Shown: one piece after another, positions 1-12,400 of the stretch
How positions within the stretch are numbered: position 1 is the stretch's first letter
How the letters are laid out: each line of letters begins with the position of its first letter
Origin: an uncultured Bacteroidales bacterium
Lineage (GTDB): Bacteria; Bacteroidota; Bacteroidia; Bacteroidales; UBA932
Length of the DNA: 58,186 bases
Direction of reading: 5' to 3'
NCBI GenBank assembly: GCA_944326385.1
Contig: CALVDT010000003.1
Location: forward strand, 1-58,186
The notes under the pieces: model-generated
What the model saw: only the letters and a program-made list of their open reading frames with translations
Database searches by the model: none
Told to the model about the DNA's origin: nothing
Position numbers and translations under genes: made by a program

Positions 1-1
1 G

Positions 2-592
2 TGTTCTTCCACAGACATTGACAGACTTGCCTCGTTTTGTCAGGCGACAACAAGGCATCAGGGCAGACTGTTCATTACCGATGGTTACCAGCGCAAACTG
101 TTGGCACCGTTTACCGAGCATTATTTCCGGGAAAGAAATATACGGTTCTTTGATTTTTCAAAAGTGCATGAATACGATGAATCCATAATTCCAGATATGA
201 TTGAATACGGATTCACTATGCCGGTAAGAGCGTCCGCCAAGTTCAAGGAGCAGTTAGACAGTCTTATGGCTCTGCTTCCGAAAGAAGAAACAGTCTTCAT
301 ATATTCACAGTTCCTGGGGTATATACTTGCAGACAATAAAGCATATAATGCCAATACCGATAAGTTTGTCCATTCACATGACTGGAACCACGAATACCTG
401 CATACATCCGGCCATGCCTCAAAGGAAACTCTTGCTCAAGTATGCAATCTTGTGAATCCTCACTCCGCAATCATTCCGATACACACGGAAAAAGGAAGCG
501 ACTTCACATCTCTCGACATCCCTGAAGAACTGAGAAACAAGGTAGTAACAAACGACACTATTGTTGGTGACATTGAAATAAAAGTACGATGA
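2..592 (+). CDS. MBL-fold/beta-CASP RNase J-like protein, 5' end cut by window
   Basis: Only the C-terminal part of this gene is present. The reading frame is open from base 2 and ends with TGA at 590-592, so the true start lies outside the window. The end contains HTSGHASKETL followed by NPHSAIIPIHTE. This matches the C-terminal signature of metallo-beta-lactamase-fold RNA hydrolases with a beta-CASP domain (SGHa..., IPiHgE), as in RNase J and related proteins. The metal-binding HxHxDH motif would be upstream and is not visible. The stop overlaps the next start by 4 bases (ATGA), so translation is probably coupled. Its position before RtcB and PrfH suggests RNA end trimming or processing in the same pathway; that is inference. 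Family assignment is fairly sure, exact substrate unknown. Confidence 0.75.
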   Translation, partial: CSSTDIDRLASFCQATTRHQGRLFITDGYQRKLLAPFTEHYFRERNIRFFDFSKVHEYDESIIPDMIEYGFTMPVRASAKFKEQLDSLMALLPKEETVFIYSQFLGYILADNKAYNANTDKFVHSHDWNHEYLHTSGHASKETLAQVCNLVNPHSAIIPIHTEKGSDFTSLDIPEELRNKVVTNDTIVGDIEIKVR

Positions 593-1206
593 GTCAGAAA
601 CTGGATTTGAGTTATCAATACGGAAAGTTTTGGCGAGGGATCGTCAGATGGAGCCGGGATGGTGAGATAGATCTGAAAAGCGAAAAGGGCATATCGCAAG
701 TCAATGCCCTCCTGAAAGTCATCTGCCATTCCCCGGCATTCGACTGCTATGACGGCAATTTCAACGGGTTGTCACCCGATGCCGTCGTAAACGGTCTGAA
801 CATAGACCTTGATGCGGAGGAATACCATTCGGATTGTCCGCACAGTTACAGAATTGAACATATCACATCATTTGAACAGGCGCTGAAGTACAGGAAATAT
901 GCACCGGACTGGTGCATACTCCAATCCGAATTTGCCTACGATGAACATGTCGGCTACGGAAAAAACTGCATCTATTTCTGCGTCAGGGACGATATGGAGA
1001 AGATTCCGGCTTTCCCGGGGAAAGAATATCCGCATGACGAATACGGATATTCCTTAATCGCTGTAATCACCGGCCCTGATTCCGAAATCATCTCCATTAC
1101 CTCCCGCTGGAACTATGGGGACGATGAGTATGATGATTTTCTGACACGGGAACAATTAGAAACCCTATTGCAGATCAAATCAGTTAATTTCAAAAACAAT
1201 TTATGA
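589..1206 (+). CDS. Conserved-looking protein of unknown function in RNA-repair operon
   Basis: A 205-residue soluble acidic protein that I do not recognise. There is no signal peptide, membrane segment or nucleotide-binding motif. It contains two Cys-Pro/Cys-His type spots (CPHS near residue 84, and several single cysteines) and a central stretch rich in aromatic and acidic residues (YAPDWCILQSEFAYDEH, then WNYGDDEYDDF near the C terminus). It overlaps the MBL gene by 4 bases upstream and the rtcB gene by 4 bases downstream (1203-1206), so it is locked inside the operon and must be co-translated with its neighbours. This makes a role in RNA repair, sensing of damage or control of RtcB/PrfH likely, but no function can be read from the sequence itself. 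Confidence 0.85.
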   Translation: MSQKLDLSYQYGKFWRGIVRWSRDGEIDLKSEKGISQVNALLKVICHSPAFDCYDGNFNGLSPDAVVNGLNIDLDAEEYHSDCPHSYRIEHITSFEQALKYRKYAPDWCILQSEFAYDEHVGYGKNCIYFCVRDDMEKIPAFPGKEYPHDEYGYSLIAVITGPDSEIISITSRWNYGDDEYDDFLTREQLETLLQIKSVNFKNNL

Positions 1207-2402
1207 CAATCTCCGGACAATACACTACCGCTGAAATTTTTACAGAGAATATCGAGGATGCGGCCTTGCAATGGGTCAGGGAACAATGCGACCATCCTGC
1301 ATTCGAGGGCGTCAGAATCCTGCAGATGCCCGATGTCCATGCAGGGAATGCATGCAATGTCGGCACAGTCTACAGGATAGGCGCTTATGTCAATCCTGAC
1401 CATGTCGGTGTGGATATTGGCTGCACCATTTCCATGCACAGGCTGTCGACTGCCATTAATCCTGACAACTTTGCCCTGCTTGACCACAGAATCCGTGAAA
1501 CAGTGCCGACAGGTACGGAGATATGTGAAAAGAACAGCATCAACGAAAAGGACCTGTTCCGGTTCCTGAATTCCCGATATCAGAAAGCACGCTCGGCCGC
1601 CCCTGACCTTATCAACGAAGCTCCGAGAATCGATGCCCGTTTCATCTCCGATTTCTGCCGCCGGATAAAATTACAGGAAGGCATTTTCTACAAGAGCATC
1701 GGCTCGCTTGGCGGAGGAAACCACTTTATCGAATATGGTGAAGACGAAAAATCCGGAGAAGGCTGGCTGACGATTCATTGCGGTTCACGGAATCTTGGGG
1801 TGAAAGTTGCGAACCACTGGCACAACATCGCAAACAACCCCAAAAGGGCGCAATATATCGGATATCTGTGGGGCGATGCCCTGAAAGGCTATCTTTCCGA
1901 CATGATTATTGCGCAGGCATACGCGATTTTCAACCATGACACTATAAGGGACAGGATCTTCGCTATTCTCAAAAAACTCTGCAAAGCCAAATGTGCCGAG
2001 TCCATATATACGACTCACAATTACATTTCGGTGACCGATGAATATCCGATGCTTCGCAAGGGAGCCATAGAGGCTTCTGAGGGTCACAAGGTCTGCATTC
2101 CGTTCAACATGCGTGACGGTATTGCGATTTGCAGAGGAAAAGGTAATGAACAGTGGCTTGACAGCGCACCTCATGGAGCCGGGCGGAAAGTATCCAGAAA
2201 TCAGGCAAGGAAACTGATTCCGCTTTCGGAATACGAAGCCTCGATGAACGGGATATTCTCGACTTCAGTCTGCACTGAAACTCTTGATGAATCCCCGCAG
2301 GCCTATAAGTCATCTGAGGAGATTCTTTCCCTGATAACTCCTACGGTAGATGTCATATCGTTCGTCAAGCCGAAATTCAATATCAAAGACACCGGAAAAT
2401 GA
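1203..2402 (+). CDS. rtcB: RtcB-family RNA ligase (RtcB2 type, paired with PrfH)
   Basis: RtcB joins RNA 2',3'-cyclic phosphate or 3'-phosphate ends to 5'-OH ends, using GTP and Mn2+. Visible signatures in this 399-residue protein are MPDVHAG (42-48), VGVDIGC with the metal-binding Cys at 74, GGGNHF with His 174, IHCGSRNLG with His 192, THN with His 272, and APHGAGRKVSR, whose His 324 corresponds to the guanylylated histidine. All key residues are therefore present and the protein should be active. It overlaps its neighbours by 4 bases on both sides. RtcB copies next to prfH form a distinct branch reported to reseal 16S rRNA cut in the decoding centre; I assign it to that branch from context. 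No archease gene is seen nearby. Confidence 0.95.
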   Translation: MTISGQYTTAEIFTENIEDAALQWVREQCDHPAFEGVRILQMPDVHAGNACNVGTVYRIGAYVNPDHVGVDIGCTISMHRLSTAINPDNFALLDHRIRETVPTGTEICEKNSINEKDLFRFLNSRYQKARSAAPDLINEAPRIDARFISDFCRRIKLQEGIFYKSIGSLGGGNHFIEYGEDEKSGEGWLTIHCGSRNLGVKVANHWHNIANNPKRAQYIGYLWGDALKGYLSDMIIAQAYAIFNHDTIRDRIFAILKKLCKAKCAESIYTTHNYISVTDEYPMLRKGAIEASEGHKVCIPFNMRDGIAICRGKGNEQWLDSAPHGAGRKVSRNQARKLIPLSEYEASMNGIFSTSVCTETLDESPQAYKSSEEILSLITPTVDVISFVKPKFNIKDTGK

Positions 2403-3010
2403 AAAAATACATACAGATAACAGCTGGCCGCGGCCCGGTCGAATGCGCCAGGGCAGTTGCACTCGTTGCCAGGGAAATTGCCAGATCCATTCCGGGCCTC
2501 ACTGTATTTGACACCGAGCCACACAAATCCGAGCAGGACTGCTACATGTCGATAACCTTCAAGTCCGACACGGAAATCCCGGCATCAGTCGTCTCAGAAT
2601 GGGAGGGTACTGTGCTGTGGCAATCCACTGCCAACCCCTACCGACCCGGACACAAGCGCAAGAACTGGTTCGTCGGAGTACATTTCATTGATGACATGGA
2701 ATTGCCGGAAATCGATGAGAAAGACATTGCCTACTCTTCCTGCCGTTCAGGCGGCAAAGGAGGTCAGAATGTCAACAAGGTGGAAACATCGGTAAGGGCG
2801 ACCCATATTCCGACCGGTGTTTCCGTAAGATGCAGTGATGAACGTTCCCAGTTCCAGAACAAACAGGCTGCAAGACAACGGCTGTTGCTGAAACTCATGA
2901 ATATCAATGCGGAATCCGAAGCCGCATCCCAAAAGGAAAACTGGACCAAACATGATTCGCTTATCAGAGGAAATCCTGTCAGAAAATTCTCAGGACCACT
3001 TTATGTATAA
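2399..3010 (+). CDS. prfH: Peptide chain release factor homolog PrfH
   Basis: A 203-residue class-I release-factor-like protein with the catalytic loop SGGKGGQNVNKVET at 117-130 (GGQ at 121-123). The loop is followed by VRATHIPTGVSVRCSDERS, the usual continuation in bacterial release factors. It is much shorter than RF1/RF2 (about 360 residues) and lacks their stop-codon recognition domains 2 and 4; instead it has an N-terminal segment of about 110 residues, as in PrfH. PrfH is known to hydrolyse peptidyl-tRNA on ribosomes whose 16S rRNA is cut in the decoding centre, after which RtcB repairs the rRNA. The start overlaps the rtcB stop (ATGA, 2399-2402). It is the last gene of the operon; about 150 bases without clear signals follow before the convergent ATPase gene. 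Confidence 0.95.
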   Translation: MKKYIQITAGRGPVECARAVALVAREIARSIPGLTVFDTEPHKSEQDCYMSITFKSDTEIPASVVSEWEGTVLWQSTANPYRPGHKRKNWFVGVHFIDDMELPEIDEKDIAYSSCRSGGKGGQNVNKVETSVRATHIPTGVSVRCSDERSQFQNKQAARQRLLLKLMNINAESEAASQKENWTKHDSLIRGNPVRKFSGPLYV

Positions 3011-3159: not shown

Positions 3160-4548
3160 CTATTTTTCAATACCTTGTTTTATCTCTTCCATTTTGGCAA
3201 TAGCATACAGTGGGCAAATCCGGACATGTCTCACTTCGGCATTGTCCTCGTTATCTACATAGTTGAATTTTCCAAAATTCTCCATTGAGCATCGAACGGC
3301 ATAATGAAGTTTTTTCTCACGCATAAACGACCACAGACTCTTCATTCCTCCTTGTGTATCAGCTTTAACTTCAACTGGAACAACTACCTGCAAATAACTT
3401 GATATGTAATCTACCTCCGCTTGGGAATTCTTTGCATGTCTCACCCAATAGTACAGGTCATGGCGGATATTCGGACTCATATAATGTAGAATTTCAAGTC
3501 CTGCTACCTGTTCTGCCATCGGGCCCTTATTTACTAAATCTGCAGCACTTGCAGTCAGAATCTGTGTAGTCAGTTCAGATATATCACCTAACGACATATT
3601 CAGAAGGCGAAGCAATAGTCCTGTGTCAAGTAACAGCATTTTCTGATACGACTTATTCTCTTCACTGCCTAATGGCAAACCATTGGCGTCTGTATGTGTC
3701 ACAGGGTGCAGAATACCTGCAAGAACCAGCAACTCCACTGCTTTTTGCACTTCTACTGTCTTATAACCAGAACCGACTTTTGAATATATGAACTTTTTTG
3801 TAGCCTGGACTGCCGCACTTCGCAGCGTCTGGCGCAACAATACAGGATCTGCATTTTTCTTGTACTTCGGGAAATCATCTTCGTATGTAACAACAATGTC
3901 ATCCTGGACTTCCTGGCATCTTACATAATCATGATGCTCAACCCAAGTCTTGACAGATTCAGGCATCCCTCCGACAAGCATATATGTACGGAGGAATTCT
4001 ACCAACTTATCATGCAAAGGTTCAGGGAGAGGATTATCTATTGAAGCTTGATCACGGGCTTCAATGAGCAGTTGTTGGCCATTTGCTTCCAGAAATTCAT
4101 CAAAAGTCATTGGATACATAAACATTGAATGAATTCTTCCGACCCCGAATGTAGGAAGTTCCTGTAATGCAAATTCAAGGAGAGAGCCGGCAGCAATAAC
4201 ATGAAGTTCAGGCATATCCTCCTTGAAAAAGCGTAAAGCCATAATAGCCTGCGGACACTCCTGAATTTCGTCAAGGAATAAAAGCGTTTTACCTGGTTTA
4301 ACAGAGGTTCCGTGTATGGCGGATATTTGCGGGACAATACGCCTGACATCCAAGTCATCTTTGAATAGAACTTTATAGTTCGGTTGTTTTTCAAAGTTTA
4401 TTTCGACAAAATTCTCAAACTTTTTAGAGAGTTCCTTGACAGCCGTGGATTTTCCGACCTGTCTGGCACCTCTAAGCAGCAATGGCTTATGGATATCTCG
4501 TGATGCCCACTCCGATAGATATTTGTCGACAAGCCTTTTGCAGTACAT
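3160..4548 (-). CDS. AAA-type ATPase with C-terminal DUF4143
   Basis: A 462-residue predicted ATP-binding protein. Walker A is GARQVGKS (27-34) and Walker B is TLLFLDEIQECP (about 88-99). The C-terminal third carries the DUF4143 region (AKNSQAEVDYI, then VPVEVKA), a restriction-endonuclease-like fold also seen in ExeA/HTH-type ATPases of archaea and Bacteroidetes. These genes are common, often multi-copy accessory genes with no settled function; defence or toxin-like roles have been suggested. Start ATG at 4546-4548 lies 25 bases downstream of a good -7 box. The coding sequence is visibly richer in A and T than the flanking operons, which suggests transfer. It stands alone, convergent with the rtcB-prfH operon. 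Confidence 0.9.
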   Translation of the reverse strand: MYCKRLVDKYLSEWASRDIHKPLLLRGARQVGKSTAVKELSKKFENFVEINFEKQPNYKVLFKDDLDVRRIVPQISAIHGTSVKPGKTLLFLDEIQECPQAIMALRFFKEDMPELHVIAAGSLLEFALQELPTFGVGRIHSMFMYPMTFDEFLEANGQQLLIEARDQASIDNPLPEPLHDKLVEFLRTYMLVGGMPESVKTWVEHHDYVRCQEVQDDIVVTYEDDFPKYKKNADPVLLRQTLRSAAVQATKKFIYSKVGSGYKTVEVQKAVELLVLAGILHPVTHTDANGLPLGSEENKSYQKMLLLDTGLLLRLLNMSLGDISELTTQILTASAADLVNKGPMAEQVAGLEILHYMSPNIRHDLYYWVRHAKNSQAEVDYISSYLQVVVPVEVKADTQGGMKSLWSFMREKKLHYAVRCSMENFGKFNYVDNEDNAEVRHVRICPLYAIAKMEEIKQGIEK

Positions 4549-9473: not shown

Positions 9474-12400
9474 TTCTGCAGACATTTCTCCTGTCGGATC
9501 GATAAGTTTTGTCATCCTTTCATTCAATGCATCTGCAAGAGCATCATCTCCATTGGCGGCATAAACATACTGCAGATTCTGGACATAAGTGAAGACATTG
9601 TTGAAATCCTCATCCCTGTAGTCATAGAACGAAAGGAAGAAATCCGCTGAAACCATCAGCTCATCAGCGAACCTCGCCGCCAGTTCCCTGGCCTTGTCCC
9701 CCTGACCCAGATCATAATACAGCGAAATCATCCGCAGCACCATATATTCGTTGCTGAACCCGAGGAAAGTCATGTCCAGAGGGAAATTGTACTCAGGCAC
9801 ATTCTCCCGGCACATTTCCAGCATCTCCAGCGCCCTGTCATTCCTGCCGTCCTCCATCGTCTTCTCTGCAGCATTCAGGAAAAGATTCCGCTGCGACATT
9901 ACACCGCAGAAAGTGTACAGGTTCTGGTAATCCACATAATAATCATCCCTCTTCAGGGAATTCCAGCTGAAGACTTCCTTCATCTTGCGATAAAGATCCT
10001 CAGTGTCGGTAAGCCCGACTTCAGAACTGCTCATAGGACCTTTTATCGGCACGAACTTGTATGAAAATCCCTCATACATCAGATAACTCTTCTGTCCGAT
10101 GTCAAGATCACCTCCCATGCTCAGCATGTTTATCGGCCTGTCCCATTCATAATTGGAAAGCAGGTCGAGAAGGAAAAGCTCAGGCTTGGTGATGAATGTC
10201 TTGCTTGACGGCATCTCAAGGACGATCTCATCCGGGATCATGTCGGCGTATTTCTCATCGAGAATCCCGTATTTCAAGACATTCTCCTTGTTTACCGGAA
10301 TGCTTATCTTCCTGGACATGATATAGTCCACCAGTTTGCCGCTTGTGAGCTCCACCTTTGCCTTCGGATGCCTGAACACCCTCATCACATCCTTTATTGA
10401 AATGACAGTGTCCCTCACATCGTATATGAACACCAGTTCATTCGTCCCGTACAGATACTGGTCCAGTCCTACGGTCAACGGAAGCGGGGCGGATTCGTTG
10501 CAGGCATATTTCATCTGGTCGATATGCCAGTCGGTACCGAGAAGCGAAGTATTGCATATCCTGACATCCGTCCTCACGTTCTCGACTTCCTGTGCATACC
10601 AGAGAGGGAATGTATCATTGTCCCCGTGCGTGATGAGAATACCGTTCTCACCTACTGAATTCAGATAATTCCGCGCCATCTCCACAGCCGTGTAACGATG
10701 GCTTCTGTCGTGGTCATCCCAGTTCTGCTGCGCCATGAGAGCCGGCACTCCGAGACAGAGCAGGGAAACAACCGAAGCTGCAGCAACGCATATCTCCCCG
10801 GACTTCCGTTCACGGATCATGTCCTCGATCAGGGAATAAAGTGCAAGCACAGCCAGTCCTGCCCAGATAGAGAACGCATAGAAGGAGCCGGCATATGCAT
10901 AATCCCTCTCGCGCACCTGATAAGGAGGCTGGTTCAGATATATCACAATGGCGATTCCTGTCATGAAGAACAGCAGGAAAGTCAGCCATGTCCCGCGCTT
11001 GTCACGTGAAAACTGGAAAAACAGTCCGATAAGGCCGAGCAGGAGAGGCAGCATGAAATAATGGTTCTTGCCCTTGTTATGCTTCAGATAATCCGGGGCA
11101 TCGCTCTGGTCACCGAGACGGGCCTTGTCGATGAACCCGATCCCGCTCTCCCAGTTCCCGGCGAATATCTCACCAGGAGACGGGCTGTGTATATCATTCT
11201 GACGGCCTGCGAAATTCCACATGAAATATCGCCAGTACATCCAGTTCAGCTGATAGTCGAAGAAAAAGCCGAGATTTGTCCAGAAGGTCGGCTTCAGGTG
11301 CTCCGCCCCCTGTACAGGCTTGCCTTTCCCGTCCATATAGGATTCGTAGAAATCTATGTACCTCTGGTCTCCGCCGGCCCACATCCTTGGAAAGAGCATC
11401 TTTCCTTCTGCCGGATATTTCAGTTCGCCCGGACCGTCTGCATGAACATACTTTCCATTGAGCGGCGCCCAGTATTTCGGTGTCACGATCTCGTACGGAG
11501 CATCGAAATATTGTCCGTAGATTATAGGATTCGACCCATATTGCTCCCTGCCGAGGTATCTTATAAGGGTGAAAGGATTGTCAGGCTGGTACTCGTTCGT
11601 AGGAGTCTTGGCGGCGGATCTGATGATGACCACCGAAAAGACGGAAAAGCCGATGACAATCACAGTGAAGCACAGCAGTATCGTATTGGCCGCAACAGCC
11701 TGTTTCTTCATCGTATGGAACAGCCCCCAGAAGCATGCCGCCAGAAGCACGATCATGAAGAAAGCGGCGCCGGTATTGAACGGAAGGCCGAGCACGTTCA
11801 CGAAGAAAAGGTCGGTGTATGCAGCGAGTTTCGGCAGATAAGGTATGATACCGAACAGGATAACGGCAAGTATGACGGCCGAGATGGCGAATATCTTGAC
11901 ATACTCCCGGAAGGAATAATGCCCCGATTCCCTTTTCCTGTAATAGAACATGAAGACGAGTGCCGGTATAGTAAGCAGGTTCAGAAGGTGCACGCCTATG
12001 GAAAGTCCCATGAGGAATGATATCAGGACAATCCATCTGTTCGCGTACGGGGAATCGGCCTGCTCATACCACCTCGTCATCGCCCAGAATACTATCGCAG
12101 TAAACAGCGAAGACATCGCATAGACCTCGCCTTCGACGGCTGAAAACCAGAAAGTGTCCGAAAAACAGTAAATCAGGGAACCCACAATGCCGGAACCGTA
12201 AATCGCAATGGCCTGCGGCAGCGTATACCGCTCTTCGGCATCCGGCTTCACCAGCCTCTTCGCCAGGAATACGATGGTAAGATAAAGGAAGAATATGGTC
12301 AGGGCCGAGCACAATGCACTCATGACATTCACTGCCACGGCTGCATGCATGTTGTCCCCGAACATCGTAAAGAAGCGTGCAATCAACTGGAACACAGGGT

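Follow-up and report, generated by a model that had tools for sequence, protein, structure and literature searches.

The window analysed here is the whole of contig CALVDT010000003.1 (58,186 nucleotides; C3 of genome G000 in our numbering, where G denotes genomes and L loci), from the 86.8% complete assembly GCA_944326385.1 of an uncultured Bacteroidales bacterium. Four plus-strand frames occupy its first 3 kb and encode the C-terminal half of a metallo-beta-lactamase (MBL)/beta-CASP hydrolase, a 205-amino-acid protein (U205), an RtcB-family RNA ligase and the release factor PrfH. An earlier note, made from the sequence alone, had taken this array for an enlarged ribosome-repair operon.

2 to 592, plus strand: C-terminal half of an MBL/beta-CASP metallo-hydrolase, 196 amino acids, open at the contig start; RMMBL over the Pfam cut-off, aligned with full-length relatives
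589 to 592, plus strand: ATGA overlap of the MBL and U205 genes, read in the sequence
589 to 1206, plus strand: U205, a 205-amino-acid protein with no assigned fold; no Pfam or NCBIfam family over cut-off
1203 to 1206, plus strand: ATGA overlap of the U205 gene and rtcB, read in the sequence
1203 to 2402, plus strand: RtcB-family RNA ligase, 399 amino acids; Pfam RtcB, aligned ligase motifs intact
2399 to 2402, plus strand: ATGA overlap of rtcB and prfH, read in the sequence
2399 to 3010, plus strand: PrfH (RFH) release factor with GGQ loop, 203 amino acids; TIGR03072 over cut-off, PDB matches
3160 to 4548, minus strand: AAA_14/DUF4143 ATPase (Pfam), convergent; delimits the operon without belonging to it

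The frames and the three successive junctions confirm that MBL, U205, rtcB and prfH are four real, overlapping genes, and the intact ligase motifs and GGQ loop to which the earlier note had pointed are in place; in relatives of the window, the operon comprises more than four genes. The window RtcB scores 186.9 bits against the Pfam RtcB domain, and its motifs GVDIGC, GGGNHFIE, IHCGSRNLG and PHGAGR line up with the PH1602 RtcB structure, the aligned residues presumably having the same catalytic roles. PrfH, which carries the loop as RSGGKGGQN, scores 90.9 bits against the Pfam RF-1 domain and passes the NCBIfam PrfH model TIGR03072 (192.6 bits, cut-off 166.65), and its two top PDB sequences, 9mor and 7sa4, are both named release factor H. 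The rtcB gene lies immediately 5′ of prfH, overlapping it on the same strand, and published work bears out that the two are a known ribosome-repair pair: RtcB ligates 2′,3′-cyclic-phosphate to 5′-OH ends, and the substrates of PrfH are ribosomes that colicin E3 has cleaved (PMC9223846). The window RtcB fails the NCBIfam release_rtcB model TIGR03073 (76.8 bits, cut-off 271.8), as does the RtcB adjoining PrfH in L078 (126 bits). It is the sole RtcB found in the assembly, and in a phylum sample of 296 genomes window-type RtcB occurred in one, the window genome itself.

The MBL part corresponds approximately to residues 234-427 of the 427-amino-acid full-length relatives, matches RMMBL at 26.5 bits (Pfam cut-off 21.6) and contains TDGYQ, HTSGH and PIHTE, the beta-CASP motifs A, B and C, with the histidine of the RNA type at motif C. 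Of two further points raised in the earlier note, the first concerns the HxHxDH metal motif, which 37 of 39 aligned relatives preserve (L035 and L146 have it changed; the set did not include the split G174 MBL), the motif region of the window copy itself lying off the contig. The second is the missing 5′ part of the window gene, which was not found in the 86.8% complete assembly when a full-length relative served as query. Profile searches gave matches to chains of RNase J and Integrator subunit 11, but the RNase J family cut-offs are missed by the window half (16.2 against 820 bits) and by the full-length relative in L032 (46.9 against 820 and 44.8 against 400). The L032 protein also matches the NCBIfam anti-phage protein 6A-MBL only partially (20.9 bits, cut-off 220), and the match with Cas14 of Type VII CRISPR is likewise partial and weak (22.3 bits, cut-off 800). 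Known MBL/beta-CASP RNases yield 5′-phosphate and 3′-OH ends, which RtcB cannot join; because such products are not RtcB substrates, it is chemically unlikely that the MBL trims ends for RtcB, as had been suggested, and we regard the enzyme as a better candidate for RNA destruction than for end preparation.

How often these genes travel together was determined in two samples, a family sample of 249 genomes and an order sample of 295; four genomes (G000, G005, G010 and G022) belong to both, leaving 540 distinct ones. PrfH exceeded its cut-off in seven family and ten order genomes, that is, in 16 distinct genomes. Beside prfH lies an RtcB of the window lineage (69-88% identical, or the window itself) in 10 of the 16, although in G537 only as a 121-residue fragment, and a distant RtcB (28-31%) in five; no RtcB was seen within 19.9 kb of prfH in G391. 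MBL and U205 precede rtcB-prfH in the same locus in four of the 16 (G000, G177, G120 and G131, the last having U205 and rtcB 4.8 kb apart). When GTDB 220 contigs were scanned with a degenerate pattern for U205, six loci emerged, those of G177, G131, G120 and G061 together with L043 and L045, two further MBL-U205-rtcB loci of which L043 ends inside rtcB. The tabulation that the earlier note had called for thus disposes of a one-strain oddity, since MBL, U205 and rtcB also occur together in G177, G120, G131, L043 and L045, and chance neighbourhood was rejected as well because gene order and overlaps recur.

The association is nonetheless a minority state of the MBL genes, 26 of whose 31 sampled loci are without rtcB-prfH. 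MBL was found in 18 family genomes (E ≤ 1e-25) and 15 order genomes (E ≤ 1e-60), 31 distinct genomes in all, and rtcB-prfH lay within the fetched MBL locus in five of them (G000, G177, G120, G131 and G035); in G035 the MBL has an altered C-terminus, lies downstream of prfH and has no U205. The PrfH label in the MBL locus of G027, a 69-residue match in a 362-amino-acid frame, was ascribed to an ordinary release factor and does not enter this figure. In G191, G275 and G429 the locus of window-type rtcB-prfH has no MBL, and in the last no other island genes either; MBL was not found in G191 or G151 (E ≤ 1e-25), and in G537 an MBL is present elsewhere in the genome. In an MBL tree of 38 rows (the MBLs of G068, G174 and G003 were left out), all seven rows labelled as linked to rtcB-prfH form one eight-row clade with that of G061, at a support of 100/100, two of the labels being incomplete (L043, cut inside rtcB, and L045, with prfH mostly deleted). 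The label requires 2 changes on this tree, whereas 500 shuffles needed 6.6 on average and never so few, and the simplest reading is that the link was gained once and lost once.

U205 itself matches no family over cut-off in Pfam, where sub-cut-off noise was the only return, or in NCBIfam, none is listed for it in PADLOC or PHROGs, and its AlphaFold2 (AF2) model, with a predicted local distance difference test score (pLDDT) of 40, is unusable. Six family and two order genomes carry it, seven distinct genomes of the 540, and rtcB-prfH accompanies it in four; it is without rtcB-prfH in G061, G015 and G535, and lies apart from MBL in G015. A fusion protein in G535 (L143 8234-9346, minus strand) joins an N-terminal U205 part to a calcineurin-like phosphoesterase directly 3′ of an MBL gene, in a genome of another family. 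The plasmid records gave no U205 match.

Upstream of the MBL gene, beyond the edge of the window, relatives revealed its steadiest neighbour: a same-strand open reading frame (ORF) with a D...ExK motif, directly adjacent in 26 of 30 assessable loci (a script gave 27, of which G526 was discounted as spurious; the cut window locus is not assessable; G383 is counted among the 26, its motif string being doubtful and its protein 43% identical to a family member). This PD-(D/E)XK-type gene, which we call the slot gene, is not of one kind. Together with plasmid relatives, the slot proteins form five BLAST clusters with no mutual match at E ≤ 1e-3 over 60 residues (the motif-less upstream ORF of L161 was not counted); all five are represented in the sampled genomes, and three in the rtcB-prfH clade alone. 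Pairwise comparison shows exchange of the slot family between otherwise similar islands: L047 and L048 share WYL regulator (84%), phosphoesterase (86%), MBL (78%), U205 (91%), RtcB (96%) and PrfH (98%), whereas their slot proteins are unmatched, the two also differing in a small upstream gene (U169 versus U172) and in an insert in L047; similarly, L032 and L044 are 69-82% identical across six shared genes outside the slot, with slot proteins that do not match. The D...ExK motifs of the slot proteins and the metal ligands of the MBL are mostly retained. The L044 slot gene exceeds the Pfam cut-off of DUF6946, a DUF6946-like slot protein is also present in L043, whose MBL is the nearest relative of the window copy, and G015 has a separate gene, after its WYL gene, over the cut-offs of REase-ARP and PDDEXK_13. 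MBL relatives with 26-31% identity were found in nine plasmid records, of which eight were opened; a motif-bearing neighbour was scored by script in five of the eight and a further one, downstream, was read in L158, while none was seen in L156 and L161. Butyrivibrio pCY186 has the order WYL, slot, MBL, and Prevotella pE2-28 has a phosphoesterase after the MBL as well as a WYL gene in the vicinity.

The fuller islands (L032, L035, L044, L045 and L047) are co-oriented and share the order WYL regulator, calcineurin-like phosphoesterase, one to three small unknowns, slot gene, MBL and U205. In G534, G503 and G383 a phosphoesterase gene is immediately 3′ of the MBL, and the majority of MBL loci without rtcB-prfH consist of just slot gene and MBL within the fetched stretch. 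In G061 (L044 11342-14829), IetA (454.8 bits) and IetS (999.3 bits) lie about 0.75 kb after U205, at the place that rtcB-prfH takes in its kin, which suggests that the 3′ cargo position is exchangeable. Between U205 and rtcB in G131 (L036 3773-7449) are UDG-like, GNAT/AAA and DprA-like genes and one for a 168-amino-acid unknown; the first three precede rtcB in G275, without MBL, and the GNAT/AAA gene is also found upstream of the island in G061, so that this block, read in loci L036, L084 and L115, may move as its own cargo. Near other MBL loci we noted type III restriction genes (G325, G174), HEC-06/Orf5-like genes (G325 and a Prevotella plasmid) and a PDC-M62A-like ATPase (G111), although these defence-like neighbours come from nine hand-picked proteins, one of them unmatched, from which no rate can be derived. 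As to the convergent ATPase gene that borders the array in the window, L045 has a near-identical 462-amino-acid gene 3′ of its island, and in G120 and G131 the island is followed by a further AAA_14-type gene.

The rtcB-prfH pair shows variation of its own. In L045, where RtcB is 97% identical to that of the window, prfH has been reduced to approximately its first 32 codons and its last stretch (11809-11960), while rtcB, U205 and MBL remain open; this state could be functional by analogy with E. coli, in which rtcB2 alone is reported to protect when highly expressed (PMC9223846). In the order genomes of L078-L082, PrfH is partnered by two RtcB lineages that are 28-31% identical to each other, which suggests that the ligase partner has been replaced. 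The 5′ neighbour of prfH in G391 (L083 9868-11306), where PrfH is over the cut-off, resembles a calcineurin-type phosphatase by eye, and near rtcB-prfH in G191 (L034 1688-3124 and 7425-8577) there are NADAR (Pfam), ART-like (weak Pfam) and, by eye, macro/PARG-type genes. A 5.6-kb fragment filed as 'Bacteriophage sp.' (MT838156; L166) contains window-type rtcB-prfH, with an RtcB part 80.5% identical to that of the window, and a frame that is MnmE-like by eye; it is probably bacterial DNA under a phage label.

Taken together, we propose, with a probability of about 60%, that the window holds the downstream end of a WYL-controlled, nuclease-swapping Bacteroidales conflict island that gained rtcB-prfH once. 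A number of observations weigh against this proposal. The motif pattern has a background rate of 17%, as it occurs in 39 of 223 other ORFs of 180-380 amino acids in the 41 loci, compared with 26 of 30 at the slot position, and it was composed after the first slot proteins had been seen; moreover, the relatedness of the MBL loci means that they cannot be counted as independent. The slot gene is missing in G526, in G174 with its split MBL and in G003, which has the most distant MBL, and in G503 it stands one place further up with another gene between it and the MBL. The AF2 model of the L046 slot protein, made with two relatives (pLDDT 66.7, predicted TM score 0.67), gave a best Foldseek E-value of 0.04 and none reaching 0.001; the result is suggestive, eight of the ten top rows being restriction-endonuclease-fold proteins (YaeQ, EcoT38I, XisH/FdxN-factor type, BstEII and Ecl18kI), but not significant. 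The small upstream unknowns vary among islands (U172 or U169, and U126 not always). Where MBL loci lack rtcB-prfH (26 cases), the script found WYL in only four (G061, G015, G077 and G503) and the phosphoesterase in five (G061, G535, G534, G503 and G383); WYL control is therefore typical of the clade and not of the whole MBL family. PADLOC-DB 2023 (E ≤ 0.01) returned no family for MBL (L032), U205, RtcB, PrfH or five slot proteins, a tenth protein, a WYL regulator, matching CRISPR-associated WYL and other models; the core pair is therefore not among the defence systems of that catalogue. MBL was absent from the matches in the searched phage records and none was confirmed in a pattern scan of viral contigs, which, with the lack of a U205 match in phage records, also led us to reject a phage origin. 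Finally, the ATGA coupling to rtcB is compatible with a joint function.

In the interpretation of the earlier note, the genes form a dedicated four-gene ribosome-repair operon, the MBL trimming or processing RNA ends, U205 recognizing or regulating, and both serving RtcB-PrfH. Three ATGA overlaps, a gene order repeated in G177, G120 and, with its 4.8-kb insert, G131, and the confinement of the link to one MBL clade would all fit, and the observation that MBL and U205 precede rtcB-prfH in several strains has stood. Their role as dedicated helpers has not: rtcB-prfH is present in only five of 31 MBL loci, U205 is without it in three of seven genomes, MBL is missing from the window-type rtcB-prfH loci of G191, G275 and G429, and the products of beta-CASP enzymes are not what RtcB joins. 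We consider such an operon quite improbable. A second alternative is that separate modules merely accumulated in a common hotspot and behind a common promoter, the MBL pair and rtcB-prfH having no functional interplay. IetA-IetS after U205 in G061, the UDG, GNAT/AAA and DprA-like block in G131 and G275 with its GNAT/AAA gene in G061, and the separation of U205 from MBL in G015 speak for accretion; yet the overlaps suggest selection for co-expression, as does retention of the link in seven of eight clade rows (L043 being cut and L045 prfH-deleted), and accretion without interplay appears unlikely to us. A toxin-antitoxin-like arrangement, in which the variable PD-(D/E)XK protein is a toxin or an inhibitor fitted to the MBL while rtcB-prfH keeps self-damage in check, would account for a variable protein that adjoins or overlaps a constant partner. 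However, the MBL metal ligands and slot D...ExK motifs are mostly kept and there is no sign of an inhibitor, so that we give this arrangement very little credence.

For the nuclease-swapping island that we favour, the genes with their order and shared orientation, the exchange in the slot, the restriction of the rtcB-prfH link to a single clade and the conserved catalytic motifs are seen directly, whereas regulation, substrates, role in defence and benefit of the pairing with rtcB-prfH are inferred from sequence. At its core would be two predicted nucleases, a constant MBL/beta-CASP enzyme whose motifs are of the RNA type and, 5′ of it, a PD-(D/E)XK-type protein of exchanged family, surrounded by the calcineurin-like phosphoesterase, small unknowns and U205, with exchangeable cargo at the 3′ end that in one clade is rtcB-prfH, most simply acquired once. 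The WYL regulator may be relieved by a damage or invader signal, upon which the PD-(D/E)XK protein, as the putative specificity- or target-setting part, and the MBL would destroy the nucleic acid of the invader or, as a last resort, that of the host. PrfH would then clear ribosomes with a cut decoding centre, RtcB would reseal their 16S rRNA, and through this repair the cell could outlive ribotoxins or its own RNase response. More broadly, and more tentatively, PD-(D/E)XK plus MBL/beta-CASP could be an uncatalogued, widespread anti-invader system with a swappable slot, one Bacteroidales clade of which has been fitted with RtcB-PrfH for self-repair and distant relatives of which reside on Bacillota and Pseudomonadota plasmids; we see this as possible, with the odds against it. 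RtcB-PrfH has so far been studied as a stand-alone response to ribotoxins. Its appearance as apparently exchangeable cargo of a WYL-type nuclease island, where a relative has IetA-IetS instead, links ribosome repair with immunity and opens to test the idea that defence operons insure the translation of their own host. Slot exchange among similar operons points to a nuclease arms race, and the MBL gene may serve as a marker for discovering new nuclease families.

The open-licence literature that we searched yielded neither an MBL partner of RtcB-PrfH nor a PD-(D/E)XK-MBL pair, and the term 6A-MBL was not found there. The closest known relative of the array is the RtcB2-PrfH operon of E. coli ATCC25922 and others, in which prfH overlaps the upstream rtcB as it does in the window (PMC9223846, PMC1586002, PMC6514570). 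A PrfH over the family cut-off, the GGQ loop and the ligase motifs are common to both, but the window RtcB belongs to another lineage, 28-31% identical to the PrfH-side RtcB of five order genomes, and the pair is preceded by MBL and U205 within a long operon. RFH-RtcB is described to gather accessory genes, for TPR, Pol-beta nucleotidyltransferase, zinc-ribbon and charged-helix proteins, with no MBL named in the accessible part of that report (PMC6514570). With enzymes of the RNase J and CPSF-73 type, the window MBL shares MBL and beta-CASP motifs, the histidine at motif C and RMMBL, but window-type MBLs score far below the RNase J family cut-offs, have a short form of 427 amino acids and lie in an operon whose partner genes vary. 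Type VII CRISPR Cas14 and 6A-MBL are likewise MBL enzymes in defence, to which the window type is matched weakly and in part. WYL and restriction-endonuclease-fold (REase-fold) genes recur in conflict systems, and the islands share WYL, phosphatase and variable REase-fold genes with the ADP-ribose conflict systems; the latter centre on an ADP-ribosyl glycohydrolase, whereas the window-type islands centre on MBL/beta-CASP (PMC9503650). IetA-IetS, a defence system listed in PADLOC-DB, is unrelated in protein to rtcB-prfH and takes the same position after U205 in G061. Set against these systems, what may be novel here is a variant RtcB-PrfH operon within a possibly uncatalogued nuclease system.

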